DNA from: Mycobacterium sp. Marseille-P9652
GTDB taxonomy: Bacteria > Actinomycetota > Actinomycetes > Mycobacteriales > Mycobacteriaceae
DNA: 64,000 bases
Assembly: GCF_902652685.1 (NCBI RefSeq)
Contig: NZ_CACRUY010000012.1
Span: 59,459-123,458, forward strand
Direction of reading: 5' to 3'
Below the pieces are notes generated by a model. That model was given only the letters and a program-made list of their open reading frames with translations, made no database searches and was not told the origin of the DNA. Shown in pieces: positions 8,845 to 48,792 of the stretch; the first letter of the stretch is position 1, and the number at the start of each line of letters is the position of its first letter. The position numbers were made by a program, and so were the translations under genes.

Positions 8845-9297
8845 ATGAACGGTGCGATGATGGGCCTCGCCGGCATGGTGGTGGGCGCGTCGGCCGTCGG
8901 CGTTGCCGGTGTGGCGCGTTCGATCACCGACACGGTGCTGCCACGGATGATGGGCAGCACCGACCACAAGCATCAGGTCAGTATGAGCCTGCAGGCTCAA
9001 CGCTACGAAACCATCCAGCGCTGGCGGGCGGGCCTGGCCAACGCCCGGGACGCCTACCAGCAGTGGGCCCAGGGGTCGCGCCAGGGCGACCCGCCCAACG
9101 TGGTCGGCGACGAGTGGTTCGAGGGGCTACGCCCCCACCTGCCCACCACCGGCGAGGCTGCGGAGTATCGCACCGCGTGTGAATTGCATTGCGAAAACAC
9201 GACACTCGTTCTGCTTTCGCTCGAGATCGGGCGAATCGAGAGGGAGTGGAACGAGGAGGCGATGGGCGGTGGGCGGCGGCGGGGCCGGCGAAACTAG
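8845..9297 (+). CDS. Conserved hypothetical, 150 residues
   Basis: ATG 8845 opens a 150-residue protein. The first 30 residues are hydrophobic and Gly/Ala/Val-rich (MMGLAGMVVGASAVGVAGVA), which could be a membrane-associated helix. The rest is helical and charged, with a Trp-rich centre (IQRWRAGL, YQQWAQG, VVGDEWFEGLRPHL). I recognise no catalytic motif. Length and position after dhmA match the unknown Rv2297 of M. tuberculosis as I recall it. Confidence 0.65.
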   Translation: MNGAMMGLAGMVVGASAVGVAGVARSITDTVLPRMMGSTDHKHQVSMSLQAQRYETIQRWRAGLANARDAYQQWAQGSRQGDPPNVVGDEWFEGLRPHLPTTGEAAEYRTACELHCENTTLVLLSLEIGRIEREWNEEAMGGGRRRGRRN

Positions 9298-30787: not shown

Positions 30788-31966
30788 TCAGCCGAGCAGG
30801 CTCAGCAACAGGCTGGTGCCGATCGGCTGGACGGTCACTTGGCCACCGCCCAGGCTCGACGGCAGCGTCAACACGCCGCCGGTGATGATCGACGGAACGC
30901 CGACATCCCCACCGCCGACGCTCGACGGCAGGGTGAGCACGCCACCGGTCAGGATCGACGGCACGTTCACGCTCCCGCCCCCGGCAATGGGAGGCAGGCC
31001 GAGCACTCCACCGGTCAGGACCGACGGCAGATTCAACTCGCCGCCGCCCAAGGCGGGGGGAAGGCTGAACGCTCCCCCGTTGATGATCGGGCTCAGGACG
31101 GTGGTGATGGGCGGCACCGTCACCACACCCCCACCGACGCTCGAGGGCAGGCTCAGCAGGCCGCCGGTCAGGATCGACGGCAGCCCCAGCACGCCACCAC
31201 CGAGGCTGTCCGGCAGGTTCAGGAGGCCACCGGTGAGTATCGACGGCACGGTCAGCAGGCCACCGCCGACGAACGGGGGCAGGACCTCGACGCCGCCGTA
31301 GCGCCACGGGCTGACGACGCTCATGATCGTGGGCTCGACGCTGGAGATCGGAGGCACTACAAGTTGCCCACCCCCCAGAGTCGGCGGCAGGCTGAGCACC
31401 CCGCCGCTGACAATCGACGGCACGGTCACCGCGCCGCCGCCCACAATCGGGGGCAGGTCGAGCACACCACCGGAGAGAAGCGACGGCACTGTCACCGCGC
31501 CGCCGCCCAGGATGGGGGGCAACGTCACCACGCCACCGTCGAGGGACAGGCTGACGCTGCCGCCCAGGAACGACGAGACGCTGAGGTCGCCGGCGGCTGC
31601 CTGGGCTTCGGCCGCCGCGCCGGCGAGCGACTGCCCGAGCAAGCCCTGGACGGGGGCGTTGACGGCGCCCAGCACGGCCTGTGCGTTCGCCACCTCGGTG
31701 GCGAGGTAGGCGCCCGCACCCGCGTTCATCAAGCCGACGAACTGCTCGTGGAACAAGTCCGCTTGGGCGCTGAGGACTTGGAAGTCCAGGCCGAAATCGT
31801 TGAACATCGTTGCGACCAAGGCGGATACCTGGTCCTGGGCCGCGGCCGCGACCGCCGTGGTCGGCGCCGCGGCCGAGGCGGCCGACTCGGCAAGCAGTGA
31901 CCTGATGCCCGATAGGCCCTGGGCGGCCGATCCCAGTTGATCCGGAATTGTGACGAGATAGGACAT
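30788..31966 (-). CDS. PE-family protein with GGG/VPS tandem repeat domain
   Basis: This 392-residue protein has an N-terminal PE domain (about 1-95: MSYLVTIPDQLGSAAQGLSGIRS, ending near GAYLATEVANAQ) that targets type VII (ESX) secretion. From about residue 140 there is a repeat of roughly 20 residues, ideal form LP-S-S-x-GGG-x-V-T-VPS-I-L-TGG-V-L. It recurs about 11 times, with a break at SPWRYGG. It is not the PGRS (GGAGGX) type. The regular LPP/VPS with GGG turns suggests a beta-solenoid. GGGAGG lies just before the ATG. Confidence 0.85.
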   Translation of the reverse strand: MSYLVTIPDQLGSAAQGLSGIRSLLAESAASAAAPTTAVAAAAQDQVSALVATMFNDFGLDFQVLSAQADLFHEQFVGLMNAGAGAYLATEVANAQAVLGAVNAPVQGLLGQSLAGAAAEAQAAAGDLSVSSFLGGSVSLSLDGGVVTLPPILGGGAVTVPSLLSGGVLDLPPIVGGGAVTVPSIVSGGVLSLPPTLGGGQLVVPPISSVEPTIMSVVSPWRYGGVEVLPPFVGGGLLTVPSILTGGLLNLPDSLGGGVLGLPSILTGGLLSLPSSVGGGVVTVPPITTVLSPIINGGAFSLPPALGGGELNLPSVLTGGVLGLPPIAGGGSVNVPSILTGGVLTLPSSVGGGDVGVPSIITGGVLTLPSSLGGGQVTVQPIGTSLLLSLLG

Positions 31967-32943: not shown

Positions 32944-33025
32944 AGGCGCTGCTCAAGGGCGGCGCTCAAACGGTCTTTACCCGATCTTGACCGCTTGTTG
33001 AATTGTCCTAACGACCATTGCGGAC

Positions 33026-36000
33026 GTGACTACGCTTCATCAGGTGGAGCTAGGGGTTCTGGGACCTCTGCAAGTCCGGCAGAATGGCGTGCCGGTCTCG
33101 ATTCCGGGCGCCAAACCTCGCGCCATCCTCACGATGCTCGGGCTGCACGGCGGTTCCGTCGTGTCGGCCGACACGCTCGTCGAGCTGCTCTGGGGTGACG
33201 ACCCGCCGCGCACCGCCGCCAAGGCGCTGCAGACCCACATCTCCCTGCTGCGCCGCACCCTGGGCGACGGCTTCGTGTTGACGGAGGGCGCGGGGTGGGC
33301 GCTGGCCGGCGCCGACATCGACGCCCTGCGGTACAAGTCGGCCGCTCGGCTGGGACGCGACGCCGTTGCCGCCGGCGACACGAGCGAGGCGGTAGCCCGC
33401 TTCGAGGAGGCGCTGGCCTTCTGGCGCGGCGCCCCCGAACTCCCCGACGGCCGGCGCGGCATCTCCGAAAAGACGCGGTGGGTCGAGGGCCATGCCGCGC
33501 TGGTCGAGGATCGGGCCGACGCACTGCTCGCCACGGGACGCGCCGCCGAGATCATCGGTGAGCTCGAGGCCGCCGTGGCCGACGCGCCGCTGCGCGAGAG
33601 GCGGTGGGGGCAGCTCATGCTCGCCCTTTACCGCGCCGGGCGGCAGGGTGAAGCCCTCGGCGCCTATCAACGGGCGCGGGCGCTCCTCGCCGACGAACTC
33701 GGCGTCGATCCGGGACCGGAACTCCGCCGGCTCGAGGCCGCGATCGTCGCGCAGGATCCATCACTGGATGGGCCAGTGGCGCAGCAGGTTTCGTCGGTGA
33801 CTCGTGCCGTTACGTTCCTGTTGACGGACATCGAGGGGTCGACGGCCGCGTGGGAGGCTGACGCCGCGGCCATGGGCGTGGCGCTCGCGAGGCACGACGA
33901 GCTCGTCGAGCAGGTCGTCACCTCACGCGGGGGTCGGCTGATCAAGACGCGCGGCGAGGGCGACGCCACGTTCTCGGTATTCGACCGGCCGTCGGCCGGC
34001 GCGGCCGCCGCCATTGAACTGCAGGAAGCGATCGCCCAGGAGCCCTGGGCGCTACGGGATCCCATGCGAGTCCGCGTCGCACTGCACACCGGCGAGGTCG
34101 AGCTGCGCGACGGCGACTACTTCGGGCGGGCGGTCAACCGCGCCGCCCGCCTGAGGTCGCTGGCCAACGGCGGGCAGATCCTGTGCTCCGGCGCGACCGC
34201 GGAACTCGTCATCGACTCCCTGTCCGACGACGTCGTGCTCGTCGACCTCGGCACGCGTCAGCTGCGCAACCTTCCGCGCCCCGAGCACGTCTTCGAGCTC
34301 CGACTCGACCGGGTCGAAGAGGCGGTGGTCATCGATGTGCCGCTGGAGCGCCCGGGGCTGCCGGCGGTGTTTTCCGGCCCGGGACCGTTCGTCGGTCGCG
34401 GGGACGAGCTCGAGCGGCTGTCGTCCGCATGGCAGACGGTGCTTGCCGGCGGCACGAACGCCATATTGATCGCCGGCGAGCCGGGAGTTGGGAAGACGCG
34501 TCTGGCCGGGGAGTGGTCGCGGCAGGCGTATGACCAAGGCGCGCTGGTGATTTACGGCCGGTGCGACGAAGACCTCGGCGCGCCGTACCAGCCCTTCGCG
34601 GAAGCCTTGCGTTCTCTGGTGCCCTGCGTCGGGGCGAAGACGCTTCGGGGGCTGCGCGGCCTGGAGGCGCTCCTCCCCCTCGTTCCCGGGCTGACCGATG
34701 TCCTTCCCGACCTGGCGGCGCCCACCCCCGCCGACCCGGACACCGAGCGCTACGCGCTGTTCGACGCGGTGGTCGCGCTGTTGGGGCTCACGTCCACAAG
34801 CGTGCCCATCGTCCTCGTCCTGGACGACCTGCACTGGGCGGCCAAACCCACGCTGCTGCTGCTGCGGCATCTGCTGCGCTTCGGCGAGCACGCCCGCGTC
34901 CAGGTCATCGGGACATACCGGAGCACCGACCTCGACCGCTCTCACCCGCTCGCGGCGATGCTCGCCGACCTGCACCGTGACGGCACCGCCCACCGGCTCC
35001 AGTTGAGCGGTCTGGCCGAGGAGGATGTGAGCGCCTACGTCGCCGAGGCCGGGTACAACGACGACGATCTGGCCCGGGCGTTGGCGTCGGTCACGGGCGG
35101 CAACCCGTTCTTCCTGATCGAGGCCCTGCGCCACGTCGACGAGAGCGGCGGCCGTTGGGACCAAACCACCCTGCCGCAGGGGGTCCGCGAAGCCGTGACC
35201 CGCCGACTCACCCGGCTTGCGCCCGAGACTAATAAAGCCCTCGCCGCCGCGGCGGTCGTCGGCAGCCGGTTCGGTCTGGAGCTGGTCGAACGGGTGGTCG
35301 GCGACGATCTCGTCGACGCGTTCGACGAGGCGGCCAAGGCGGGCATCGTCATCGAGGAGCCTGGCGGTCGGTACCGGTTCAACCATGCCCTCGTCCGGCA
35401 GTCGCTGCTCGCCGAACTGCCATCGGTGCGGCGCATGCGGCTGCACCAGCGCATCGCCACGACGCTCGAGAACGAGCCTGGCGCCGACGACGAACTCCTT
35501 GCCGAGTTGGCCTACCACTACTTCGAATGTGCGTGGGCGGGCAACGCGGCCAAGGCCGTCGAGTATTGCCGTCGTGCGGCCGACCAGGCGATGGTCCGAT
35601 TGGCGTACGAGGGCGCGGCCGAACTCTATGATCGGGCCCTGCACGCGCTGGAGGAGATCGACGAGGATCTGCCCGACCGCGGCGACCAAACGGCCGCGTT
35701 GCTCATTGCGCGCTGCGAAGCCCTGCTGGCCGCCGGCGACGTCGCATCGGCGGCGGGAGCCGTTTCCCAATTGCAGTCCCAGACGGCAGGTTCCGCGCGG
35801 CTGGCGGCGTGGGCCACGTCCTTCGACGGCCAGCTCTCGATGCTGGTCCACCCCGAAAGACTCGACGAGATCCTGGCCGCGGTGAGCTCGGCCGCCGCCA
35901 CGCTGGCCGAACTCGACGACCCGGCCGGCGAAGCCAAGGCGCACACCGTGCGCGCCGGGTGCCTCGCGCGCCTGGGCAGAGTCGGCGACTGCGAGGTCGC

Positions 36001-39000
36001 GCTGGACGACGCGCTGACCGCGGCCCGGTGCGCCCGTGACCACCGCCTGGTGAACGCTGTGTTGGCGAACGCGCCACTCGCGGCGTTGTGGGGCCCGAAC
36101 CCCGTTCCGCGGGCGGGCGGTCGGTGCCTGGATGTGGTGCGGCTCCTGCGGATCACGACCGACTCGCCCTCGGTGGAGGCGACGTCGACGCGGTGCCAGG
36201 CGGTGTTGGAGGCCTTCCGCGGCCGCGCCGCCGCGGCACGGCGAATGATCGACTCGGCGCGGCGCACGGTCAGCGAGTTGGGCCTGCGCCATGCGCTGAT
36301 GGAGGTCGAGCAGTTCGCCGGCATCGTCGAGTTGGTGGTCGACGAACCCGCCGCGGCCGAGGAACATCTCCGCAAGGCCTACAACGGCTTTCGCCGCATG
36401 GGCCTGGATGCCGACACCGCCGAGACGGCCGCTCTGCTAGGGCGCGCGTGTCTCGTACTGGACAGGGTGGCCGAGGCCGACGAATTGTGTTCGGAGAGCG
36501 AGCGTCTGGCCGGCCACGCGCTGAAGCCGTCGATGGGTTGGCGAACACTTCGGGCCCTGCTGCTTTCCCGCGCGGGTGAGCACGTTGAGGCGCGGAGGGT
36601 CGCCGAAGCCGCCGTCGCCCTCGCCGAGCGCACCGACGCCCTCGTGGATCACGCCGAAGCATGTTCGGCGTTGGCGACGGTTCTGGGCGCCGCCGGCGAC
36701 GCGGCGGGTGCGCGGGCGGCGGCCGAACGAGCGGCCAATTTATACGAGCGCAAAGGGGCCGCGGCGCTTGCCGAGAGGGCTCGCAACGTGATCGGCAAGA
36801 GCAACGCTTCACGGGTAACACCGAAGACGCCGCTCGCTGAACCGACGAACGCGTGCGCGGAGGCGGGTGGCCGATTGGTGGATGCCGTCAATCGCGAGAG
36901 CTGGGATGAGGTGACCCGCCTCCTTGCCCAACACGTGACCGTCGAAAACCGACGGAAGATCGTCGGCTTCCCGCCGATCGACGTGCCATCAAGCCAGTGG
37001 CCCGAGGATATGAGGCGATATCTGGAGACGGGCCTGGTTCGCTACCGCGCTATACCTCTCGCCGCATGCGGCGAGCGTCACGCGCTGTTCCGGCTGGAGA
37101 TAGGCACCACAGACTCGAGTTCTGGAGCGCCGCAGGACGAGGAGCTCCAGCTAGTCGGCCTTGACGAGGACGGCCGCATAGCGCTGCAAGTGAAATTCGA
37201 CATTGAAGACGTCGATGCCGCGCTCGCCGAACTCGAGGCTACGTTTGCACGATTCGAGCGGCACCGTAATCGGCTTACGCAAGCACCTGAAACCCCGACC
37301 GCCGAATTGGACAACGCGTGCGTGCGAGCAGGTGAACGACTACTTGCCGCCATTGCACGCCGGGCGTGGGACGAAGTGCCGCATTTTTATTCACCTGAAG
37401 CGTTCATCGAAAGCCGCCGGAAGATAGTCGGATTCGCGCAGATGTCGGCGGACCACTGGGTGCGAGCGAACAGGCACCTGGTTGAGTCGGGCGATGTCCG
37501 GATGACCCAAGGGGTCATCGCGGTGCGAGGCGAGCGCCTTGCGCTATCTCGACTGAGAGTGGACAGTCCCGACGTCACGCCTGGAGCGCCATACGACGAG
37601 TTCCTGGTGCTCTACGGCATCGACGACGAGCTTCGATTCACGCTGCAGGTGTGGTTTGACATCGACGACATCGACGCCGCTCTCGCCGAGCTCGACGCTC
37701 AGTATTCGCGGTTCGAGGAAGGACTACCGCCGGAAAGGCGACTTGGAAACGCTGCAAGTCATGTGGATAAACGTCTATGGCAGTACTTCGCCGCTGGTGA
37801 CTGGGACGCCGTCGGAGAAGTCTTTGCCGACGATTTCTTGCTCGACGATCGTCGTCAGGTGGTCAGCGCCGGACTCCGCCGAGGTCGCGACATCGAAATC
37901 GAAAACCTCAGGGCCATGGCGAATCTCGCGGAGCGCGTGAACATAACCTCGACCGTCATTGCGACCCGCGGCGAGCGCCTTGCTCTGCGTCGTCTGCGAT
38001 TTTCGGACCAACATGACCAGTCCGACGCCTTCTACAACGAAATGATCGGGGTCGTCGAGGTCGACGCCAATCAGCGGATTTTGACGCATGTCGTATTCAG
38101 TGCCGACGATTTCGAGGCCGCCGTCGCGGAGCTTGACGCGCGATACCCGGCCGGCGAAGCGGCTGCGCATGCGCGCACGTGGGCCGTCGTGTCGGGGGCA
38201 TACACCGCAATCAACCGGCAAGAGCTCTTCGCCACAACCTCGGACTGGACCAATCTCGATCACCGTCCGGCAGCGGCATTCGCGATCGGCGACGCGCACG
38301 CATACATCCGCGCGTCGCTGGATGACGGCGCGGGCATCGTCTACGTAGAGGCGGTGCATCGACTGTCCGACCTCGGAGCCGTCGTCACCTGGGCTGCGAA
38401 AGGGACCACCCACGAAGGCTTCGACGCCGAATGGCGCGGGATCCACTTGCTCACGGCCGACGGCGACCTGATCAGTCGCTTCGAGGTGTTCGACGAGGCC
38501 GACCTTGATGCCGCAATCGCCCGCTTCGATCAGCTGGCGCGTCCGGCGGGCCGGCTTGGAAACGCGGCCAGCCGGGTGGCGGAGCGTTTCGGCGCGGAAA
38601 TCGCGGCGAAGGACTGGCCTGCCATTGCGGAGACACTCGCCGGCGACGTCTCTTTCGAGGACCGGCGGCGAGTCGTCAATGCCGGAATCCGACACGGCCG
38701 AGACGCCGAGATCGAAGATTTACAGACGGTCGCCGAGGTCGGCTTTACGACTGGGACTTCCGTCCTCATCGCGACGCGAGGCGAGCGACTCGCCCTCGCA
38801 CGTAGCCGCTACTCCGTTGCCGACGAGCGGCACGATGCGTTCCAGAATGAAGTCCTCAACGTCATAGAGATTGACGACAGTGAGCGAATCGCGGCCGTAG
38901 TAATACTCGATCCCAACGACTTCGAGGCCGCCATCGCGGAGCTCGACGCGCGGTATATCGCCGGCGAAGCCGCCGCCCATGCGCGCACCTGGAAGGCAAT

Positions 39001-42000
39001 TACGGGTGCTTATGCTGCACACAACCGGCGCGAGGTGGCACCGACGACCTCGAACGTGATTAGCGTCGATCACCGCAGGGTCGCAAGATTTGCTCCGGGC
39101 GAAGGCATCGAATACATCCGGGCGGGATGGGAAATCGACCAAGAGCTCAAGATCTACGCGACGACCGTGCATCGGCTAAATGACCGTGGAGCACTTTTGT
39201 CTTGGGCAGGACGTGGAGCCTCGCATCAGGGCTTTGCCGCCGAGTGGCGAGGCCTCAACCTGTTCACGGTCGACGACGAACTCATTAGTCGTGCCGAAGT
39301 ATTCGACGAGGCCGACCTAGACACCGCTCTAGCGCAATTCGATGAGCTCAGCCGGTCGGTTCCGCGGCTCGAAAACGCTGCAAGCCAAGCCACCGAACGC
39401 TTTTTGGGATACTTCGCGGCTCGTGAATGGGACGCCATGGCCGATGCGCTTGCCGATGACCTTCAAAGTGATGATCGCCGTCGAGTCGTGAACGCAGGCG
39501 ACCACCGGGGCCGGGACGCCGAGCTCGAGAACTTCCGGCTGGGCGCCGCCCTCGGCACGACGCATGCAGAGATGTCCACGATTGCCACCCGCGGCGAGCG
39601 CCTCGCACTTGCTCACGCCATCTACTTTCGCGGCGACGAGCAACCTGACGCTTTCAGCGTCCATGTGTTGCAGATTTCAGAGATTGACGCCGACGACCGG
39701 ATCTCGGCGTTCATTGCTTTCGACCCCGACGACTTCGACGCCGCCATCGCGGAGCTCGACGCACGCTATCTCGCCGGCGAAGCGGCCACCTTCGCGAGTA
39801 CGTGGTCGGCGATCGCGCGAGCCTACGCGTCGATCAGTGAGCGCAAGCCCCCGGCGACTACGCCGGACTGGATCAACATCGACCACCGCCGGGCGGCAGC
39901 ATTTGCGCCCGGTGACGCCAACGCATACGTCCGCGCAATCTGGGACCTGACACCGGACGTCAACATCTACGTCGAAAGCGTGCTGATGCTGGGTGAAACC
40001 GGAGCAGTCATCAGCCATGCATCGCACGGGACGTCGCGCGGCGGTTTCGACGCCGAATGGCGGGCGGTCAACCTTTTTACGGTAGAAGGGGACACGATCA
40101 ACCGCTGCGAGATCTTCGACGAAGCGGACATCGACGCCGCCACCGCGAGGTTTGCTCAATTAAGCCAGCCGGTGAGGCAGTTGGAGAACACGGCCGCGCG
40201 CGTATTCGGACACGTCTGGTCGTATTACGCGGCTCGCAACTGGGACGCAATGGCGCAAACCGTGGCGGACGACTATCTGGGCATCGACCGACGACTGGCC
40301 GTGAACGCCGAGATTCAACGCAGTCGAGACGAAGTGATCCGGGACCTGCAGGCGGCCGCTGGCGTCGGCTTCTCAATAACGATGGTGAGCGCCATCGCCA
40401 TCCGCGGCGAGCGTCTCGTCCTCGCACGTGTTCGCGCGTCGGGCTCGGACCCCGAGGCGATTCAAAACGATGCCCTCATCGTCGTCGAGATCGATACCGC
40501 TGACCGGATCGCAACCGTCGTCACATTCGACCTCGAAGACTTCGACGCCGCTATCGCGGAGCTCGACACCCGCTACCTCGCCGGTGAAGCGACCGCTCAT
40601 TCGCGCAGGTGGGTGGCGGTGTTAGAGGCTTACGCCGCAATCAACAGGCACGAACTCCCCCCCACGACGCCCGACTTCGTAAATGAAGATCATCGACGGG
40701 GCGCAGCATTCGCGGCTGGTGACATGATCGAATATTTGCGCGCCGGTTGGGATCTCGATCAAGACATCTGCTTCTACGTGGAGGCCGTGCATCGGCTGGA
40801 CGATCTCGGAACGGTCGTCTCGCACATGGGCCGTGGCACCTCAGGCGAGGGCTTCGATGCCGAGTGGCGAGAGGTCATTCTCTTAACTATCAGCGGCGAC
40901 GCGTTCAACCGCTGCGAGGTGTTCGACGTGACGGACGTCGACGCCGCGACCAACAGATTCGAGGAGTTGCACCCGCTAACGCGGCAACTGAAAAACGGCG
41001 CAAGCCGAGCCGATGATCGGGTCAATGCGCTCTTTGCCGAACGGCGTTGGGACGAAATCGACGCGCTACTAGCCAAGGATGTTCAGATTGACGACCGGAG
41101 GCGAGGACTCCGCCGTGACAGCGACGGCCGCGCCGCAGAGGTCGCAAATGCGCGTGTGATCGCGGACATCGGCGTCAGAACCATCACGTCACACGTTCTC
41201 GGGGTTCGCGGCGCGCGCCTTGCACTCACGCGTACGGTCTTCTCGGGTCGAGACCAGCGCCCAGACGCATTCCATACCGAGCTACTCCGCATCGCGGAAA
41301 TCGACACCGACGACCGGATCGTGGCGTACCTTGCGTTCGACCCCGACGACTTCGACGGCGCGACTGCAGAACTGGACGCGCGCTATCTCGCCGGCGAGGC
41401 GGCCGCTTACTCGCATACCTGGTCTGTCATCAAAGACAACTACGCCGCGCTGAACCGGCATGAATCTTCGTTGACGACCTCCGACTGGGTTCTCTTTGAC
41501 CACAGACGAGGCACATTGTTTGGCACCGCCAACTCGAATCAGGTCAGCAACATCTGGGACACGACGCCAGATCTCAGCATCAAAGTCGAGGTGGTGCATC
41601 GGCTCAGCGATCTGGGTGCGGTCGTCACTCACGTTGCGCACGGAACTTCGCCCGAAGGATTCGACGCGGAGTGGCGTGAGGTTGCCGTATCGACGGTTCG
41701 AGGCGACAAGGTGGACCGTTGCGAGTTGTTCGACGAGACCGACCTAGACGTCGCGCTTGCGCGCTTCGATGAGTTGGCTCGGCCGGCGTTGCGGCAAGAG
41801 AATTCGGCAAGCCAAGCGGGCAAGGGCTTCGTGACGCACTTCGCAGCGGGCAACTGGGACGCGATGGCGGAGATGCTGGCCGACAACTTCACCAACGAGG
41901 ATCGACGCCGAACGGTAGGCGTAGGAGTCCGACATGGCCGAGACGCCCAGATCGCGGACATGCGCCAGATCGCCGATCTTTTCAGCACCGAGGTGACGAC

Positions 42001-45000
42001 GACCACGATCGCGACTCGAGGGACCCTCCTTGCCCTCATCCATCTGCACTTCGCCGGCCGCGATCGCGGGCCTGAGGAATTTCTCCTGGAAACGGTTTGC
42101 GTCCTCGAGATCGATGACGAACAAAGGCTCGCCGCTGCCGTCTTCTTCGATCCCGACGAGATCGGCGCCGCGATAGGCGAGCTCGACGCGCGATACCTCG
42201 CCGGAGAGGCGGCCGCGCACGCACACACGTGGTCGGTCGTCATGGAGGGGCACGCTGTACTCAACAGGCATGAGGTGCCCCCCATGACGCCCGACTGCGT
42301 CAGCATCGACCACCGCCGTGGTCCAGCGTTCACGCCCGGAGAAGTGATCGCATATTTCCGCTCCGGGTGGGAAGACGGCGAATTCCTGACCTACGTCGAG
42401 TGTGTGCACAGTCTCACGGCTCGCGGTGCGGTCGGAACGTATGTGGGAAGCGGGATTTCGCACGAAGGCTTCGATGCGGAATGGCGCGGGGTCGAACTCG
42501 TGACCGTCGACGGTAACGCCATCGACCGCCTGGAAATCTTCGACGAGTCCGACTTGGAAGCCGCTATCGCAACGTTGGATCAGCTCAGCCGGCGGCCACC
42601 GCGACGGGAAAACGCCGCGAGCCGGGCTGATTTCCGCTTCAACAACCTATTCGCCAGCAAGAGCTGGGACGCCTTGGGCGCGTTACTCGCCGAGGACATC
42701 CGGGTGGACGACCGACGTCGAGGACTTCGCCGAGAGAGCAACGACCGCGCCACAGAGCTCAGGGAGTTGCAGGCGATCGCCGAGCTGGGCGTCAAGACGA
42801 TGACATCGCGCGTGCTCGCCATTCGTGGGGAGCGTCTCGCTCTGGTTAGCACCCTCTACGAGGGTCGAGATCAGCGACCCGAGGCGTTCCGCACGGAAGT
42901 GTTGCGCGTCGCGGAAATCGATACCGACGAGCGCATCGTGGCGTACGTGGCGTTCGATCCGGACAACCTCGACGCCGCCATCGCCGAACTCGAGGATCGA
43001 TACCGCGCCGGTGAAGCGGCCGGCCACGCGCACACGTGGTCGCTCGTGACGGATGCCTTCGCCGCAATCAATAGACACGAACTGCCCAAGCTGGCGCCGG
43101 ATTGGGTCAACATCGACCACCGGCGCGGCGCAGCGCATGCGACCGGCGAGATGACCTCTTACCTCCACGCCCTGTTTCACGACGTGCCCGACATCAGCGT
43201 CGTCATCGAAATCGTGCATCGCCTCAGCGATCTCGGAGCCGTCGTCACCCAAGCGGCGCGCGGCACATCGCAGGACGGCTTCGAGGCTGAGTGGCGGGAG
43301 GTAGGGATCCTCCAGTTCGACTGCGATCTGATCAGCCGTTTCGAGTTGTTCGAAGAGGCAGACCTCGACACAGCGCTCGCACGCTTCGAGGAGCTCGCCC
43401 TAGCGCCAGCGCGGCTGGAGAACTCGGCAACTCGACTGGAGCAGCGGCTGTTTGCGCACTGGGCCGCTCGCGAGTGGGACTCAATGGCCGAGCTGCTGAC
43501 AGATGACAGTTACGTCGACGACCGCCGGCGCACCGTGAACGCAGGATTTTGGCGAGGACGCGATGTCGTAGTCACCAATCTGCGCGCCCTCGCCGAGGGC
43601 GGCGCCAACTTGACGCGGGCCGTCATCGCCACCCGTGGGGAGCGTCTCGCCCTCTTCCGCCTCTGTTCCTTGAGTGCCGACCCGAAGGGTGGGGGATTCG
43701 GGGTCGAAATGCTAGACGTCGTGGAGATCGACCCCGCCAGCCAGATTTCGGCGCACGTCCTGTTCGACATCGACGACATCGATGCGGCGTTCGCGGAACT
43801 CGAGTCACGCTATCTCGCCGGCGAAGCGGCCGAGCACGCGCACGCTTGGTCGATCGTCTCGTCCGCTTACGCAGCGATGAACCGGCACGAGCTGTTCTCG
43901 ACAACGCCGAACTGGATCAACATCGATCACCGACGGCCGGGCATCATCGAGGAAGGCGGTCTCAACGCATCCCTGCGTTCGCTGTGGGACCTGATCCCGG
44001 ACATCACTTTCCGTGTCGAGGCTGTTCATCGTCTCTCCGAGCGTGGTGCCGTCTGCTCCCACGTGGCGCAGGGTGTTTCGCGCGACGGTTTCAACGCCGA
44101 ATGGCGAGGGATCGAGGTCATGACGGTCGACGGTGACCAAATCGACCGCTGCGAGATTTTCGACGAGGCCGACCTCGACGCCGCGCTCGCGCACTTCCAA
44201 GGACTGGATCAGCAAGCGCAGCGACCGAACAACGCGGCGGGGCGGGTGCACGAGCGTCTGCAAGCGCTCATGCTGTCCCGCGACTGGGATTCAATCGCCG
44301 AGAGCCTGGCCGACGGCGTCATCCATGACGATCGTCGACGGATGGTCAACGCGGTAATTCAAGAGGGTCGCGGTGCCGTCACAGCCGAGATGGCAGCACT
44401 GTTCGACGTGGGGGTGCGCAACCACACCTCCGAGGTGATCGCGACTCGTGGTGAGTACCTGGTCCTCAGTCGTTCACGAACGTGGGGACGCGGTGATTCC
44501 GCCGACGCATTCCAGATCGGAGTCCTCGACATCGTAGAGATCGACGCTGAAGAACGATTGTTGAGGCGCATCACGTTCGACCCCGAGGACATGGACGCCG
44601 CGTTCGCAGAGCTCGAGTCGCGATACATAGCCGGCGAGGCGGCCACCCATGCGCACATGTGGGCGCTTGTGACGAGCGCCTATGAAGCGCTGAACAGGCG
44701 TCAACTTCCCGCGACCAGCGCAGACTGGGTAAACATCGATCATCGGCGACTCACTCCTATACCAACCGGTGACCTGGACGCTTACCTGCTTGCGACATGG
44801 GCGCTCTCGCCAAGATCCGGCATCCGTATCGAAGCCGTTCATCGATTGAGCAACCTCGGGGCGGTCGTCACCCAGGTGGTGGAAGGGACATCGCACCAAG
44901 GCTTCGACGCCGAGTGGCGCACCATCGACCTTTCCATGTACGAGGGTGACAAGCTCATTCGCACCGAACTCTTCGACGAGGCAGACCTCAACGCCGCACT

Positions 45001-45853
45001 CGCGAGGTTCGATGAACTCAATCGACCTGCGGCAGTGGCGAACTTGGCGACACAAGCCCGGACGCGGCTTGCCGATGCCTTCAACCGCCGCGACCTGAAA
45101 GGCTTTCTCGAGCTCACCAACCCCGGCGGAGCGTATGAGGACCGCCGCAGAGGGTTTCATGACGAAGGCCCCATCGATGCAAAGATCGCGCGAGCACTGT
45201 TTGAGGTTGCGCCGGAGGCATGGCGTACGGAAGTCGAGACCGTCGCCGTCCGGGGTGACCGCCTCGCACTTACCCGCGATCGGTATCGCGACAGTGAGGC
45301 GGACAAGACTGTCGTCGCCGAGCACTTGACGCTCACACGTGTCGGTGAGGACGGGCTGGTCCACGACACAGTGCTCTTCGATCCCGATGACATCACCGGC
45401 GCCATGGCGGAACTCACGGATCGCTGGGTCGCTTCGGGGGAAGTGTTGCACCCGAATGTCATACGCGCCATACATCGACTTCAAGAGAGCAGCAACCGTC
45501 ATGACTGGGACACGATCGCCGCGCGAATCGCCGGAGCCGCCTACGTCAACCACCGGCAATTATCCAACCCCGCTGCCGACACGATCCAGGATTTCCTGTC
45601 CGGCATCCGCATGTGGGCCTCGCTGATACCCGACTTCCGCGTTGAACTTGCCGAGGTCATCACGCATTCGCGGGCAGGTCTGGTGGCGCAGACGTCGTTG
45701 CGGGGCACGTCGACGGAAGGTTCGGCGGTCGAAATCCCCTTGATTGAGCTGGTCCTCTTCGACGGTGACCGTGTCACGCGTTTCGAAGCGTTCGACTACG
45801 CACAGCGCGCGTTGGCCTTGGCCCGCTTCGAGGAGCTCAACCGGTCCGTCTAG
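33026..45853 (+). CDS. Giant SARP-cyclase-STAND protein with about 22 NTF2-like modules
   Basis: GTG 33026 gives 4275 residues. Order: OmpR-type winged helix (about 7-95), BTAD helical domain (96-245), class III nucleotidyl cyclase (262-425; Asp268 and Asp313 for metal, Lys307 for base recognition, Asn371/Arg375 transition-state pair), STAND ATPase (Walker A Lys490 in GEPGVGKT, Walker B Asp600-601) and TPR-like helices to about 1260. Then come two single NTF2/SnoaL-like modules (1272, 1427) and ten composite repeats of two modules each from residue 1572 to the end. The head matches known mycobacterial SARP/LuxR-cyclase-AAA regulators. The tail is unlike any I know. It is probably a cytoplasmic signalling protein; all cyclase residues appear intact. 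The frame is uninterrupted. Confidence 0.85.
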   Translation: MTTLHQVELGVLGPLQVRQNGVPVSIPGAKPRAILTMLGLHGGSVVSADTLVELLWGDDPPRTAAKALQTHISLLRRTLGDGFVLTEGAGWALAGADIDALRYKSAARLGRDAVAAGDTSEAVARFEEALAFWRGAPELPDGRRGISEKTRWVEGHAALVEDRADALLATGRAAEIIGELEAAVADAPLRERRWGQLMLALYRAGRQGEALGAYQRARALLADELGVDPGPELRRLEAAIVAQDPSLDGPVAQQVSSVTRAVTFLLTDIEGSTAAWEADAAAMGVALARHDELVEQVVTSRGGRLIKTRGEGDATFSVFDRPSAGAAAAIELQEAIAQEPWALRDPMRVRVALHTGEVELRDGDYFGRAVNRAARLRSLANGGQILCSGATAELVIDSLSDDVVLVDLGTRQLRNLPRPEHVFELRLDRVEEAVVIDVPLERPGLPAVFSGPGPFVGRGDELERLSSAWQTVLAGGTNAILIAGEPGVGKTRLAGEWSRQAYDQGALVIYGRCDEDLGAPYQPFAEALRSLVPCVGAKTLRGLRGLEALLPLVPGLTDVLPDLAAPTPADPDTERYALFDAVVALLGLTSTSVPIVLVLDDLHWAAKPTLLLLRHLLRFGEHARVQVIGTYRSTDLDRSHPLAAMLADLHRDGTAHRLQLSGLAEEDVSAYVAEAGYNDDDLARALASVTGGNPFFLIEALRHVDESGGRWDQTTLPQGVREAVTRRLTRLAPETNKALAAAAVVGSRFGLELVERVVGDDLVDAFDEAAKAGIVIEEPGGRYRFNHALVRQSLLAELPSVRRMRLHQRIATTLENEPGADDELLAELAYHYFECAWAGNAAKAVEYCRRAADQAMVRLAYEGAAELYDRALHALEEIDEDLPDRGDQTAALLIARCEALLAAGDVASAAGAVSQLQSQTAGSARLAAWATSFDGQLSMLVHPERLDEILAAVSSAAATLAELDDPAGEAKAHTVRAGCLARLGRVGDCEVALDDALTAARCARDHRLVNAVLANAPLAALWGPNPVPRAGGRCLDVVRLLRITTDSPSVEATSTRCQAVLEAFRGRAAAARRMIDSARRTVSELGLRHALMEVEQFAGIVELVVDEPAAAEEHLRKAYNGFRRMGLDADTAETAALLGRACLVLDRVAEADELCSESERLAGHALKPSMGWRTLRALLLSRAGEHVEARRVAEAAVALAERTDALVDHAEACSALATVLGAAGDAAGARAAAERAANLYERKGAAALAERARNVIGKSNASRVTPKTPLAEPTNACAEAGGRLVDAVNRESWDEVTRLLAQHVTVENRRKIVGFPPIDVPSSQWPEDMRRYLETGLVRYRAIPLAACGERHALFRLEIGTTDSSSGAPQDEELQLVGLDEDGRIALQVKFDIEDVDAALAELEATFARFERHRNRLTQAPETPTAELDNACVRAGERLLAAIARRAWDEVPHFYSPEAFIESRRKIVGFAQMSADHWVRANRHLVESGDVRMTQGVIAVRGERLALSRLRVDSPDVTPGAPYDEFLVLYGIDDELRFTLQVWFDIDDIDAALAELDAQYSRFEEGLPPERRLGNAASHVDKRLWQYFAAGDWDAVGEVFADDFLLDDRRQVVSAGLRRGRDIEIENLRAMANLAERVNITSTVIATRGERLALRRLRFSDQHDQSDAFYNEMIGVVEVDANQRILTHVVFSADDFEAAVAELDARYPAGEAAAHARTWAVVSGAYTAINRQELFATTSDWTNLDHRPAAAFAIGDAHAYIRASLDDGAGIVYVEAVHRLSDLGAVVTWAAKGTTHEGFDAEWRGIHLLTADGDLISRFEVFDEADLDAAIARFDQLARPAGRLGNAASRVAERFGAEIAAKDWPAIAETLAGDVSFEDRRRVVNAGIRHGRDAEIEDLQTVAEVGFTTGTSVLIATRGERLALARSRYSVADERHDAFQNEVLNVIEIDDSERIAAVVILDPNDFEAAIAELDARYIAGEAAAHARTWKAITGAYAAHNRREVAPTTSNVISVDHRRVARFAPGEGIEYIRAGWEIDQELKIYATTVHRLNDRGALLSWAGRGASHQGFAAEWRGLNLFTVDDELISRAEVFDEADLDTALAQFDELSRSVPRLENAASQATERFLGYFAAREWDAMADALADDLQSDDRRRVVNAGDHRGRDAELENFRLGAALGTTHAEMSTIATRGERLALAHAIYFRGDEQPDAFSVHVLQISEIDADDRISAFIAFDPDDFDAAIAELDARYLAGEAATFASTWSAIARAYASISERKPPATTPDWINIDHRRAAAFAPGDANAYVRAIWDLTPDVNIYVESVLMLGETGAVISHASHGTSRGGFDAEWRAVNLFTVEGDTINRCEIFDEADIDAATARFAQLSQPVRQLENTAARVFGHVWSYYAARNWDAMAQTVADDYLGIDRRLAVNAEIQRSRDEVIRDLQAAAGVGFSITMVSAIAIRGERLVLARVRASGSDPEAIQNDALIVVEIDTADRIATVVTFDLEDFDAAIAELDTRYLAGEATAHSRRWVAVLEAYAAINRHELPPTTPDFVNEDHRRGAAFAAGDMIEYLRAGWDLDQDICFYVEAVHRLDDLGTVVSHMGRGTSGEGFDAEWREVILLTISGDAFNRCEVFDVTDVDAATNRFEELHPLTRQLKNGASRADDRVNALFAERRWDEIDALLAKDVQIDDRRRGLRRDSDGRAAEVANARVIADIGVRTITSHVLGVRGARLALTRTVFSGRDQRPDAFHTELLRIAEIDTDDRIVAYLAFDPDDFDGATAELDARYLAGEAAAYSHTWSVIKDNYAALNRHESSLTTSDWVLFDHRRGTLFGTANSNQVSNIWDTTPDLSIKVEVVHRLSDLGAVVTHVAHGTSPEGFDAEWREVAVSTVRGDKVDRCELFDETDLDVALARFDELARPALRQENSASQAGKGFVTHFAAGNWDAMAEMLADNFTNEDRRRTVGVGVRHGRDAQIADMRQIADLFSTEVTTTTIATRGTLLALIHLHFAGRDRGPEEFLLETVCVLEIDDEQRLAAAVFFDPDEIGAAIGELDARYLAGEAAAHAHTWSVVMEGHAVLNRHEVPPMTPDCVSIDHRRGPAFTPGEVIAYFRSGWEDGEFLTYVECVHSLTARGAVGTYVGSGISHEGFDAEWRGVELVTVDGNAIDRLEIFDESDLEAAIATLDQLSRRPPRRENAASRADFRFNNLFASKSWDALGALLAEDIRVDDRRRGLRRESNDRATELRELQAIAELGVKTMTSRVLAIRGERLALVSTLYEGRDQRPEAFRTEVLRVAEIDTDERIVAYVAFDPDNLDAAIAELEDRYRAGEAAGHAHTWSLVTDAFAAINRHELPKLAPDWVNIDHRRGAAHATGEMTSYLHALFHDVPDISVVIEIVHRLSDLGAVVTQAARGTSQDGFEAEWREVGILQFDCDLISRFELFEEADLDTALARFEELALAPARLENSATRLEQRLFAHWAAREWDSMAELLTDDSYVDDRRRTVNAGFWRGRDVVVTNLRALAEGGANLTRAVIATRGERLALFRLCSLSADPKGGGFGVEMLDVVEIDPASQISAHVLFDIDDIDAAFAELESRYLAGEAAEHAHAWSIVSSAYAAMNRHELFSTTPNWINIDHRRPGIIEEGGLNASLRSLWDLIPDITFRVEAVHRLSERGAVCSHVAQGVSRDGFNAEWRGIEVMTVDGDQIDRCEIFDEADLDAALAHFQGLDQQAQRPNNAAGRVHERLQALMLSRDWDSIAESLADGVIHDDRRRMVNAVIQEGRGAVTAEMAALFDVGVRNHTSEVIATRGEYLVLSRSRTWGRGDSADAFQIGVLDIVEIDAEERLLRRITFDPEDMDAAFAELESRYIAGEAATHAHMWALVTSAYEALNRRQLPATSADWVNIDHRRLTPIPTGDLDAYLLATWALSPRSGIRIEAVHRLSNLGAVVTQVVEGTSHQGFDAEWRTIDLSMYEGDKLIRTELFDEADLNAALARFDELNRPAAVANLATQARTRLADAFNRRDLKGFLELTNPGGAYEDRRRGFHDEGPIDAKIARALFEVAPEAWRTEVETVAVRGDRLALTRDRYRDSEADKTVVAEHLTLTRVGEDGLVHDTVLFDPDDITGAMAELTDRWVASGEVLHPNVIRAIHRLQESSNRHDWDTIAARIAGAAYVNHRQLSNPAADTIQDFLSGIRMWASLIPDFRVELAEVITHSRAGLVAQTSLRGTSTEGSAVEIPLIELVLFDGDRVTRFEAFDYAQRALALARFEELNRSV
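37739..45850 (+). repeat. Ten composite A-B NTF2-module repeats (coding)
   Basis: Units start at 37739, 38552, 39365, 40178, 40985, 41792, 42602, 43412, 44222 and 45032. Spacings are 813, 813, 813, 807, 807, 810, 810, 810 and 810 bases. Each unit holds an A module (NAAS...W-D, DRRR, TRGERLAL, EIDxDDRI, FDPDDFDAAIAELDARY) and a B module (W...AYAAxNRHE, DHRR, EAVHRLSDLGAVV, GTSxEGFDAEWR, FDEADLDAALARFDEL). The DRR of A is kept in all ten, and the HR of B in all ten. Both modules end with the same FDxxDxDAA helix, so A and B look like an older duplication. Confidence 0.85.
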
Positions 45854-48792
45854 CTCTTCTCTCGCCGAAATGGCCTGCGGCGAACGACGAACAGAACGAC
45901 AAGCGCAATCACCGCCGCCACCGGTATCCAGGGGATGAGGAACCCGACCGCCAACACCACCCCGTGGACCGCCGACAGCAACGACTCCCAGCCGTGTCGC
46001 AGTGCCCCGAGGAAACCGCCTTGAGTCACGGTCGGTTTGGGCGAGAGGTTGACATTGATGGTCGCGTAGGAGACCTGGTCGCCCAGTGTGGCGCGCTGCG
46101 CCCGCAGCGAGTCCAGCTCGGCCTGCCGCTGGGTGAGCGACGATTCCGCCGAGAGCAGGTCGCCCACGCTCCCCGCGCGGCCCATCAGGTCCAGGAGCCG
46201 ATTGACCGAGGTCTGCAACGCCCCGATCCGGGCATCGAGGTCGACGCGCTGCGACGTGACGTCGGTGTGATTGATCGCCATCGACTCCACGGTCCCGAGC
46301 TTCTTCGCGGAAGCAAGCACACCGTCCAGTTTGACCGCCGGGATGCGCACAACGAGATCGACCGTCGGAGAGGAGGATCCGGATCGCTCCGAGCGCGAAT
46401 CCACCCGTCCGCCGGCATCGGTGACCGCCGCAACGAGCCGGTCGGCCACCTGGGCGGGCTCGGCCACGACCATCTGCAGTGAACCCGTGGTGACGATGTC
46501 ACGATTGACGGTCCCGTCCTGGGGGGCCTGGGGCGGCGCCGGCGGTGCCTCGGGCACTGAGACCGTGCCCTGCGGGACGCCGGCCTTAGTCTCAGTCGCA
46601 ATCCCATTGCCGCCGGGCGCCGGGAGTTTCCCGGCCACCACACCGTCACGCAGAGGCGCGCTCTCACGATTGATCGACCAGATCCAGCCGCCCCCGAGGA
46701 GCACCGCAGCGACCACGGCCAGGGTAATCACGTTGCGCAGCTTGACCATTCGGGCTTGTGAGGCGATCGCTTGCGGCACGGGTTGGCTCGGTGCCGGTTG
46801 GCTCGGTGCCAGCGTCGCGGCGCTGACCGGTGCGGACGCCACCGGCCCGGCCATGGAGTACCTTTCGGCGACTCCGTCGGGGGACCTGACGGCCTTGCGG
46901 AGCATGCCGGCATGGTAGGGCCCGGGCTGCGGCTTCCATCCGGCCGGCGCCTCCACGGGCTGCATCACGCGGTGCGGCGCCCCACCGTCGGCAACCGTCC
47001 GGCTGTCGACGGCGACAAAAGCGGTGAACCTGCACAGCACGCCGAACCGCAGCGACGTGTCGATGATCCGCTTCTCCAAGTCCTCGCCGGGACCGACGGC
47101 ATAGCGGTCCTCGAGGTCGCGCACGTGGGCGCGGGCCCACTGTGCGGTCACGGCCGGGGCCTCGCGCCGCTGCCCGGCGACGGTCACCGACCAGTTGCCT
47201 TTGCCCGTCGTCCCCTGCAGGGCAAGCGAACCGGCCGCGCTCCCCCGGTACCGCCCCGACAGCACGAACGGCACGCCCGGGAACAGGTCGGGCAGCCGGG
47301 CCGGGCTAATCGTGTCCGGGATGATCTCCAAACCCTCGCCGCGCAATGCGATCGAATGGACGAGAGGCGCGCCGACGCGCCGGTGGATGTCCTCCATGGC
47401 CTCGTCGAGGCGGTCCTCGCTTTCCACCAATTCGCAACGGCCGCCGCCGATACCGGCGAGCCGGCCGAGGAAGCCGGCGTTGACGGCCTGGTCGATGCCG
47501 ACCGCATGCACCCGCACCCGGCGCATGTCACCCGTCAGCTCGCGCAGGATCTGATCCTCGTTGCCGACCTGCCCGTCGGTCACCAGGATGACGACGGCGT
47601 CGCGGCCGGGCGCCCCGCGCAGCATGGTGAGGGCCTGGCGTAGCGGGGTGAGCAATTCGGTGCCGCCGCGGGCATCCACTCGCGCCAGGTGCTCGACGGC
47701 GCGAAACCGGTTGCGGTCGTTCGCCTCCACGAGCGCCTCGGGAAGGCCTTCCGGACGGTCGATGTGGTCGTCGAACGTGAGCACCGCGAACCGGTCACCG
47801 CTCGTGAGCGTGTCGATGATGCGCGCCGCGGCGCGGCGCGCGGCCACCATCTTCCACCCGGCCATGCTGCCCGAGCGGTCGAGCACGAGCACCAGGTCGC
47901 GGGGCCGCGGCGGCGCGCCGGAGACCGGCGGCAGCACCGTCAACTGATATGTCCCCTCGTCGCCCTCGGGATCGGACACCAATACCAGCGCGTCGCTGAT
48001 GGCCTCGGTGCCGTAACGCAGCCGCAGCACGAAATCCCGGTTGGCCCGCTCGCCGGGGTGCACCCGTATCCGCCCGTCTTCGGTGGACACGGCGTGCAGG
48101 CTGGAACGCACCTCGGACAGCGCCAGACCGGCGGGGTCGATGCCAACGTCGATCGACAGCGCGACCGGGTGCGGGAAGCCGGGCAGTAGCACGGGCGGGG
48201 TGATGCGCGACGCGTCGGGAACCGCATCGGTGTCGTCGGCATAGCCGTCGCCGGCCGCGATGTCGGACAGGGGTTCGCCCGGGATATAGCGCGGTGCAAC
48301 GACGAGGGGGAACCGGAATGTGGCGTCGCCGTCTTCGTAAGCCAAGGGTGAGACGAGCGTGATCGTGACGCTGACTCGTTCGCCGGGCATGATGTTGCCG
48401 ACCCTCATCGTGAAGACGTCGGGTCGCTCCTCTTCCGCGATGGACGCTCGCCGGCCCGACGCGATGGCGTCGTCGTACTCCTGCCGTGCGGCTTCCCGCT
48501 CGCGCAGATCGGCTTCGACGACGCGTCCGTCGGCGATCATCCGCATCCCGGTGACCGCACCGCGATCCGGCAGCGGGAAGACGTAAGTGGCTTCCAGCGG
48601 CACGTCGAAGCCGTTGCGAAAGGTTTGCGTCAGCTCGACCTGACTGGTGAGTCCGGTGATGTCCGCCCGAACATCGAGACGCTCCAGCGGCAGGTTGCCC
48701 CGGTCGGTGTGCAGGGCGCCAACACCGGCCTCGTCGCCGGCGGCCACGCGACCCGCATCGGCGTCGCTCATCGAGGTGATGCGGACGGTCAT
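45850..48792 (-). CDS. VIT-vWA-TM-DUF4349-TM fusion protein
   Basis: A 980-residue protein with no signal peptide. The N-terminus is a VIT domain (about 25-160; LTQTFRNGFDVPLEATYVFPLP, then YDDAIASGRRASIAEEERPDVFTMRVGNIMPGE in parts). A von Willebrand A domain follows with MIDAS Asp305-x-Ser307-x-Ser309 (DRSGS) and VILVTDGQVGNE. One membrane helix lies at about 685-708, a DUF4349 domain at about 760-925 (coiled-coil region LLSAESSLTQRQAELDSLRAQ) and a second helix at 942-969. This topology puts VIT-vWA in the cytoplasm and DUF4349 outside. It is translationally coupled to the MerR gene. The substrate is unknown. Confidence 0.85.
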   Translation of the reverse strand: MTVRITSMSDADAGRVAAGDEAGVGALHTDRGNLPLERLDVRADITGLTSQVELTQTFRNGFDVPLEATYVFPLPDRGAVTGMRMIADGRVVEADLREREAARQEYDDAIASGRRASIAEEERPDVFTMRVGNIMPGERVSVTITLVSPLAYEDGDATFRFPLVVAPRYIPGEPLSDIAAGDGYADDTDAVPDASRITPPVLLPGFPHPVALSIDVGIDPAGLALSEVRSSLHAVSTEDGRIRVHPGERANRDFVLRLRYGTEAISDALVLVSDPEGDEGTYQLTVLPPVSGAPPRPRDLVLVLDRSGSMAGWKMVAARRAAARIIDTLTSGDRFAVLTFDDHIDRPEGLPEALVEANDRNRFRAVEHLARVDARGGTELLTPLRQALTMLRGAPGRDAVVILVTDGQVGNEDQILRELTGDMRRVRVHAVGIDQAVNAGFLGRLAGIGGGRCELVESEDRLDEAMEDIHRRVGAPLVHSIALRGEGLEIIPDTISPARLPDLFPGVPFVLSGRYRGSAAGSLALQGTTGKGNWSVTVAGQRREAPAVTAQWARAHVRDLEDRYAVGPGEDLEKRIIDTSLRFGVLCRFTAFVAVDSRTVADGGAPHRVMQPVEAPAGWKPQPGPYHAGMLRKAVRSPDGVAERYSMAGPVASAPVSAATLAPSQPAPSQPVPQAIASQARMVKLRNVITLAVVAAVLLGGGWIWSINRESAPLRDGVVAGKLPAPGGNGIATETKAGVPQGTVSVPEAPPAPPQAPQDGTVNRDIVTTGSLQMVVAEPAQVADRLVAAVTDAGGRVDSRSERSGSSSPTVDLVVRIPAVKLDGVLASAKKLGTVESMAINHTDVTSQRVDLDARIGALQTSVNRLLDLMGRAGSVGDLLSAESSLTQRQAELDSLRAQRATLGDQVSYATINVNLSPKPTVTQGGFLGALRHGWESLLSAVHGVVLAVGFLIPWIPVAAVIALVVLFVVRRRPFRREKS

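Follow-up and report, generated by a model that had tools for sequence, protein, structure and literature searches.

Within a 64,000-nucleotide stretch of Mycobacterium sp. Marseille-P9652 (contig NZ_CACRUY010000012.1; hereafter the window), one gene encodes a 4275-residue protein that ends in a long array of repeated modules. By sequence and prediction, it combines an EmbR/AfsR-like head, a cyclase with intact residues, a STAND ATPase, TPR-like helices and NTF2-fold dyads, with an operator at the gene's own start. We propose that it is a self-regulated STAND-type receptor whose dyads would be small-molecule pockets on a switch with cyclic AMP (cAMP) and transcription as outputs, a reading in which our confidence is middling. 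A wider version, a modular chemoreceptor in which a constant self-regulated cAMP switch would carry a species-specific row of hydrophobic pockets and read many small molecules at once, is more tentative. We are similarly guarded about whether such pockets would come from a long-standing pool of dyads shared across the genus and be exchanged as whole units.

Comparing the protein with itself gave a period of about 270 residues, and splitting the array yielded 22 modules, beginning with two A-like singles and continuing as ten A-B dyads. The preliminary description of this DNA had counted about 22 modules of one repeated fold type; the count and the single fold held, while two types, A and B, proved to alternate.

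36839..37261 (+), single module 1, A-like, residues 1272-1412
37301..37711 (+), single module 2, A-like, residues 1426-1562
37742..38554 (+), dyad 1, modules 3-4 (A-B)
38555..39367 (+), dyad 2, modules 5-6
39368..40180 (+), dyad 3, modules 7-8
40184..40987 (+), dyad 4, modules 9-10
40988..41794 (+), dyad 5, modules 11-12
41795..42604 (+), dyad 6, modules 13-14
42605..43414 (+), dyad 7, modules 15-16, part of the AlphaFold model
43418..44224 (+), dyad 8, modules 17-18, part of the AlphaFold model
44225..45037 (+), dyad 9, modules 19-20
45038..45850 (+), dyad 10, modules 21-22, which diverges most (30% against the first row of A1)

The modules had been called NTF2/SnoaL-like, with structure prediction suggested as a check. 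The AlphaFold model and Foldseek support that fold, and the curved sheet and three helices in about 130 residues that mark NTF2-like/SnoaL domains are present. Pfam placed SnoaL_2 in 10 stretches (whole-protein E value 1.8e-34) and SnoaL at residues 4148-4237. At the DNA level, a tandem repeat search of 36500-46000 returned just three rows with a 21-bp (base pair) period, two of them being one array.

Variability was computed over 451 aligned rows, namely 450 family dyads and the reference. Along the strands, variable and conserved positions alternate, and the two faces differ in mean entropy (3.08 vs 1.28 bits in A; 2.61 vs 1.09 bits in B). Positions on the variable face are hydrophobic or small, with charged residues at 2-6% in A and 2-12% in B; on the other, less variable face, the charged share is 24-34% in A and 1-40% in B. 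A profile of the modules matched 6p3l and 6p44 (named SnoaL-like domain protein) weakly, at E values of 0.07 and 0.37. Through these alignments, the variable positions of A strands 5-6 appear, weakly, to fall on pocket-lining residues of ketosteroid isomerase; the B modules would map in the same way by analogy with A. We read the modules as putative pockets with one shared polar anchor and varied walls. The preliminary description had left the choice between a multi-site sensor and a scaffold. The sensor is best supported because hypervariability and a lack of charge mark the sheet face that maps to the pocket, while the opposite face is conserved; a scaffold keeps a lesser claim.

The coding frame has no internal stop, so the single 4275-residue frame claimed earlier is unbroken in the window DNA. 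One translated product is likely, because frames of the family are long and intact and ratios of nonsynonymous to synonymous divergence (dN/dS) lie below 1. Pfam also recovered all four parts that had been named for its first portion.

33026..45853 (+), coding frame of 4275 residues, GTG start, stop codon counted in
33113..33268 (+), winged-helix DNA-binding part, residues 30-81, Pfam PF00486 Trans_reg_C; matches EmbR 2fez and AfsR 8hvr
33317..33745 (+), BTAD, residues 98-240, PF03704, E value 2.5e-37
33800..34207 (+), class III cyclase, residues 259-394, PF00211 Guanylate_cyc; matches Ma1120 and 3mr7; residues identical in 66/66 heads
34385..34906 (+), STAND ATPase AAA_16, residues 454-627, PF13191, with Walker residues; Foldseek match 6mfv
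35489..36793 (+), all-helical TPR-like part, residues about 822-1256

Pfam and structure matches agree on a winged helix followed by a BTAD, the arrangement of SARP regulators such as AfsR and EmbR, and the closest solved structures to this part are EmbR 2fez (E value 1.8e-36) and AfsR 8hvr (1e-35). For the cyclase they are 3mr7, Gresag 4.3 and Ma1120. Across 66 aligned heads, the window's own counted, D268, K307, E311, D313, D364, N371, R375, K490, T491, D600 and D601 are identical in every one. The metal, substrate and transition-state residues of class III cyclases are thus present in all 66. The GEGD loop (310-313) has two extra residues relative to the aligned PDB cyclases, so that more than one acid is a candidate for binding the second metal; the claim that the catalytic residues are in place stands to that extent. 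The cyclase probably makes cAMP. Both Walker motifs (K490/T491 and D600/D601) are kept as described, and the AAA_16 match together with TPR-like helices in the model gives the P-loop ATPase and helical repeat sensor of a STAND NTPase. In Foldseek, 6mfv ranks first for the STAND-TPR part. The stretch at about 1013-1067 of the TPR-like part (36062-36226) has many invariant positions even against the two distant heads, L122 (G095; 45% identical overall) and L157 (G433; 40%), and may be the meeting point of head and array.

Immediately before the start lies a block of 44 bp that aligns without gaps in 68 of 68 non-identical family upstream stretches, the upstream DNA being otherwise poorly conserved.

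32975..33003 (+), SARP-box-like operator: CTTTACC 32975-32981, CTTGACC 32986-32992 and GTTGAAT 32997-33003, with 4-bp spacers
33013..33018 (+), -10-like hexamer GACCAT (block columns 39-44), 7 bp ahead of the GTG

The pattern CTTTACY-N4-CTTGACC-N4-RTTGAAT, with single changes allowed, and a GACGAT-like hexamer recur in all 68 stretches, with A at column 40 in all 68 and T at column 44 in 67. The hexamer lies 6 bp from the start in 29 stretches and 7 bp in 39, and we infer a leaderless start at the GTG. Repeated heptamers set 4 bp apart are the pattern that SARP regulators bind (PMC3367932, in part), and this block is a putative operator that the SARP head would bind. Taking the GTG as +1, units 2-3 lie by arithmetic at -40 to -19, which is likewise the position given for the afs box of AfsR in the part seen of PMC10936776.

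At up to 3 mismatches, the operator matched the window's own genome at this site alone, in a strict search that can miss weaker targets; with one target by that search, the promoter logic is cleanly testable. Across 198 genus genomes at up to 2 mismatches there were 94 sites, against 2 for the backwards control. Of these, 87 are followed by a head match at a distance of 22-29 bp (51 bp in one case), 2 (G441 and G031) precede broken copies, and 5 are elsewhere. Conversely, 86 of 90 head matches have the operator, and the four without it are internal fragments of genes that are broken or split. Operator and DNA-binding head go together, because G433, whose protein has a zinc ribbon head instead, has dyad-like modules and no site; G043, known from its array part alone, likewise has modules and no site. 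None of the five sites elsewhere has a family gene downstream in the DNA examined. One of them, L184 (G046) 9013-9041 (-), has a zero-mismatch operator, hexamer and GTG, possibly all that is left of a lost copy; the other four cannot be told from chance.

The family is a Mycobacterium one and varies in module number. The dyad profile matched in 23 of 60 genus genomes and the head, at E <= 1e-200, in 78 of 198, the window's own genome counted in both, and the architecture is therefore not a product of chance. Beyond the genus, a phylum sample of 346 genomes gave one matched genome, G095, a class sample of 394 gave none, and a second phylum sample of 396, queried with G095 modules, returned only G095 again. 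These samples overlap, and the first-look candidates scored per genome (7 in the 346, 6 in the 394, 2 in the 396 and 3 in the 198 genus genomes) are few enough that copies can be missed. Named relatives come from 69 loci, drawn from the best 80 of 267 confirmed stretches; 62 distinct genes, the window's included, have a complete head and a frame that ends within the DNA compared.

Module counts among these 62 run from 2 to 31. Among the lowest are genes whose frame is interrupted within the array (L062 with 2, L102 with 5, L044 and L050 with 7); complete frames that are not visibly broken span 5, in L053, to 31. Outside this set, L059 has at least 37, its frame running past the end of the DNA compared. 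The usual order is one or more A modules followed by A-B repeats, with a few exceptions such as L094, L106 and L134. Identity of complete heads to that of the window is 78-87%, except in G095 (40%), and dyads of one protein average 37-57% identity. Four species pairs with at least 3 dyads at >=75% identity keep the dyad order and differ in dyad number. Between L098 and L100, the head has dN 0.023 and dS 0.245 and the best-matching dyads range in dS from 0.037 to 0.907; between L092 and L103, dS is 0.328 for the head and 0.075-0.728 for the dyads. Some of the best matches in these pairs may be paralogues left by loss, but in either case a single gene is made of parts that differ widely in age, which is what recombination among arrays would produce. 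Heads and dyads are both kept by selection, because in six pairs dN/dS is below 1 (about 0.05-0.13 in heads, 0.17-0.52 in dyads). That the modules arose by recent tandem duplication or evolve in concert was rejected, as dyads resemble those of their own protein about as closely as those of a random other one, the other protein beating the dyad's own in 4391 of 8820 matched-size draws; in the raw count, 13 of 453 dyads had their best match within the same protein, but this mainly reflects pool size and was not used. Plasmids and phages held no match to the one dyad queried, and a mobile origin was rejected on that result.

Could the array instead recognise proteins, in a STAND receptor of the immune type that is directed at phages or rivals and whose dyad turnover reflects an arms race? 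The STAND-TPR core, the fast turnover of dyads and the presence of the gene in some genomes and its breakage in others all suit this idea, and anti-phage Avs3, bound to phage terminase, ranks second in Foldseek for the STAND-TPR part. We nevertheless think it unlikely: variable positions that are hydrophobic or small are unlike an exposed binding surface, dN/dS is below 1 in the dyads compared, the plasmid and phage searches gave no dyad match, and 0 PADLOC families matched at E 0.01, with no search made for defence genes beside the loci.

Less probable again is that the modules are enzymes, a multi-site array of isomerases, cyclases or epoxide hydrolases on a regulator. The first Foldseek matches of the modules are indeed the enzymes MonB and Lsd19, both aligning over two modules. 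In ketosteroid isomerase, Asp38 is the catalytic base and Tyr14 and Asp99 form the oxyanion hole. Positions 36 (A) and 171 (B) align with Asp38 and are Asp in 98% and 96% of the 451 rows; 6p44 has Asn there. Only this equivalent is kept, however: just 9% have Tyr at the Tyr14 position (12), and the Asp99 position (101) is highly variable, with Asp in about 7%. Fusion to a regulator, the variable face mapping to the pocket and the lack of a widely shared neighbour gene also speak against enzymes; no cluster of neighbouring frames (>=100 residues, within 6 kb) occurs in more than 16 of 83 sequences, and some members of these clusters are out-of-frame or low-complexity frames. An array that serves as a spacer, a rod for oligomerisation or an inhibitory tail, with length outweighing sequence, would fit the range of module counts and the interface-like mix of hydrophobic and charged residues on the less variable face, but it is improbable given dyads that are old, distinct and under purifying selection, with hypervariable uncharged strand positions that a pure spacer would not need.

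Under the receptor reading, the dyads would be pockets for small, mostly hydrophobic molecules, and different dyads would take different ligands. Without ligand, dyads and TPR helices would hold the switch off, by analogy with AfsR, whose NOD and TPR parts inhibit SARP-driven transcription activation until ATP binding relieves them (PMC10936776, in part), and with ECF41, whose SnoaL-like extension inhibits the sigma factor (PMC8999054, in part). Ligand binding would relieve STAND autoinhibition and allow ATP-dependent activation, and the output would be cAMP from the cyclase and, by way of the operator, a change in the gene's own transcription. From one species to the next, entire dyads are gained, lost and replaced on a head that stays fixed, which would give each species its own pocket set on one switch. 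If true, this would be a natural scaffold for chemical sensing in which one switch carries many replaceable ligand pockets, spread over a genus of medical and environmental importance, and a direct route to the signals that mycobacteria sense and to their link with cAMP. It would also extend the STAND principle, a fixed switch with variable sensor repeats, to a small-molecule fold.

Several points weigh against this receptor. The ligand, cAMP and DNA-binding steps rest on sequence and prediction. The grouping into two faces was picked once the entropies were known, and the pocket side was assigned from weak alignments and the active-site residues of ketosteroid isomerase; for strand 4, the 6p3l/6p44 alignment and a turn-based alignment differ by one residue. 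The modules also carry a nearly invariant Asp-Arg motif, which could point to a chemistry common to them. The longer GEGD loop, the rank of Avs3 and the strictness of the operator search belong here as well.

The head is of a known kind. PimR-type SARP-LAL regulators (PimR, PteR, SanG, PolR) have the same three heptamers with 4-bp spacers and a single target region, and Pfam gives the same SARP, cyclase-like and AAA/LAL order, a match to the published description (PMC3367932, in part) and not to sequence. In this protein, unlike those, the cyclase catalytic residues are kept; the PimR site lies between pimR and pimM and serves pimM, whereas the operator here is at the gene's own start, and the available part of that description mentions no NTF2 array. 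AfsR shares SARP, STAND/NOD and TPR parts and, by the domain description seen in PMC10936776, has neither cyclase nor NTF2 array; EmbR, the closest solved structure to the DNA-binding-BTAD part, ends in an FHA domain (same source, in part). In ECF41/ECF56 sigma factors (SigJ and others) a SnoaL-like domain is likewise built-in control of a transcription factor, but as one 120-150-residue extension with neither ATPase nor array in the part seen of PMC8999054. Ketosteroid isomerase, Rv0760c, MonB and Lsd19 share the module fold as stand-alone enzymes or binders, and the Tyr14/Asp99 positions are not kept in the array. MalT, 6mfv and Avs share the STAND switch and helical repeat sensor; their entry titles name no NTF2 array, and Avs sense phage proteins. 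A title- and abstract-level literature search, with most subscription journals outside its coverage, found no description of this architecture. The preliminary description had thought it novel, and in this respect the array, dyad build and turnover were not found in print, while the head is a known kind (PMC3367932, in part) and the protein belongs to a Mycobacterium family and is not a one-off. The TPR-like part, the A-B dyad build and the heptamer operator before the start are additions to that description.

Copy number and integrity vary. Several genomes hold two or three copies, and L079 1678-18902 has two family genes head to tail, the second running past the locus end. L057 (M. lepraemurium) has scattered pieces only, and L044, L050, L062, L078, L090, L093, L102 and L124 are split by a stop or frame change, being broken or mis-sequenced; the gene seems dispensable in some lineages. 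L157 (2526-9881, Mycobacterium) joins a cyclase-STAND core and NTF2-like array to a double zinc ribbon that replaces the DNA-binding head, and L122 (3551-9181), from a genome of another class, has the same build. In the window's own genome, frames of about 900-1200 residues at G000:C50, C2, C7, C3, C38, C4, C63 and C92 match the cyclase and the ATPase start, and shorter frames at C37 and C62 match the DNA-binding-BTAD part; a dyad profile search of that genome, these frames included, found no dyad outside this gene.

Upstream of the gene lies a PE-domain protein at 30788-31966 (-), with weak matches at 3 of 89 related loci, two of them apparently one contig. A convergent VIT/VWA/DUF4349 protein at 45850-48792 (-) overlaps the gene end by 4 bp and is matched at 6 of 89, and the downstream neighbours include an MMPL protein. 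The G+C content of the array (36839-45850) is 0.61-0.65 vs 0.70-0.72 in the head, and the array is lower than the head in all 66 of 66 family genes (means 0.63 vs 0.69).
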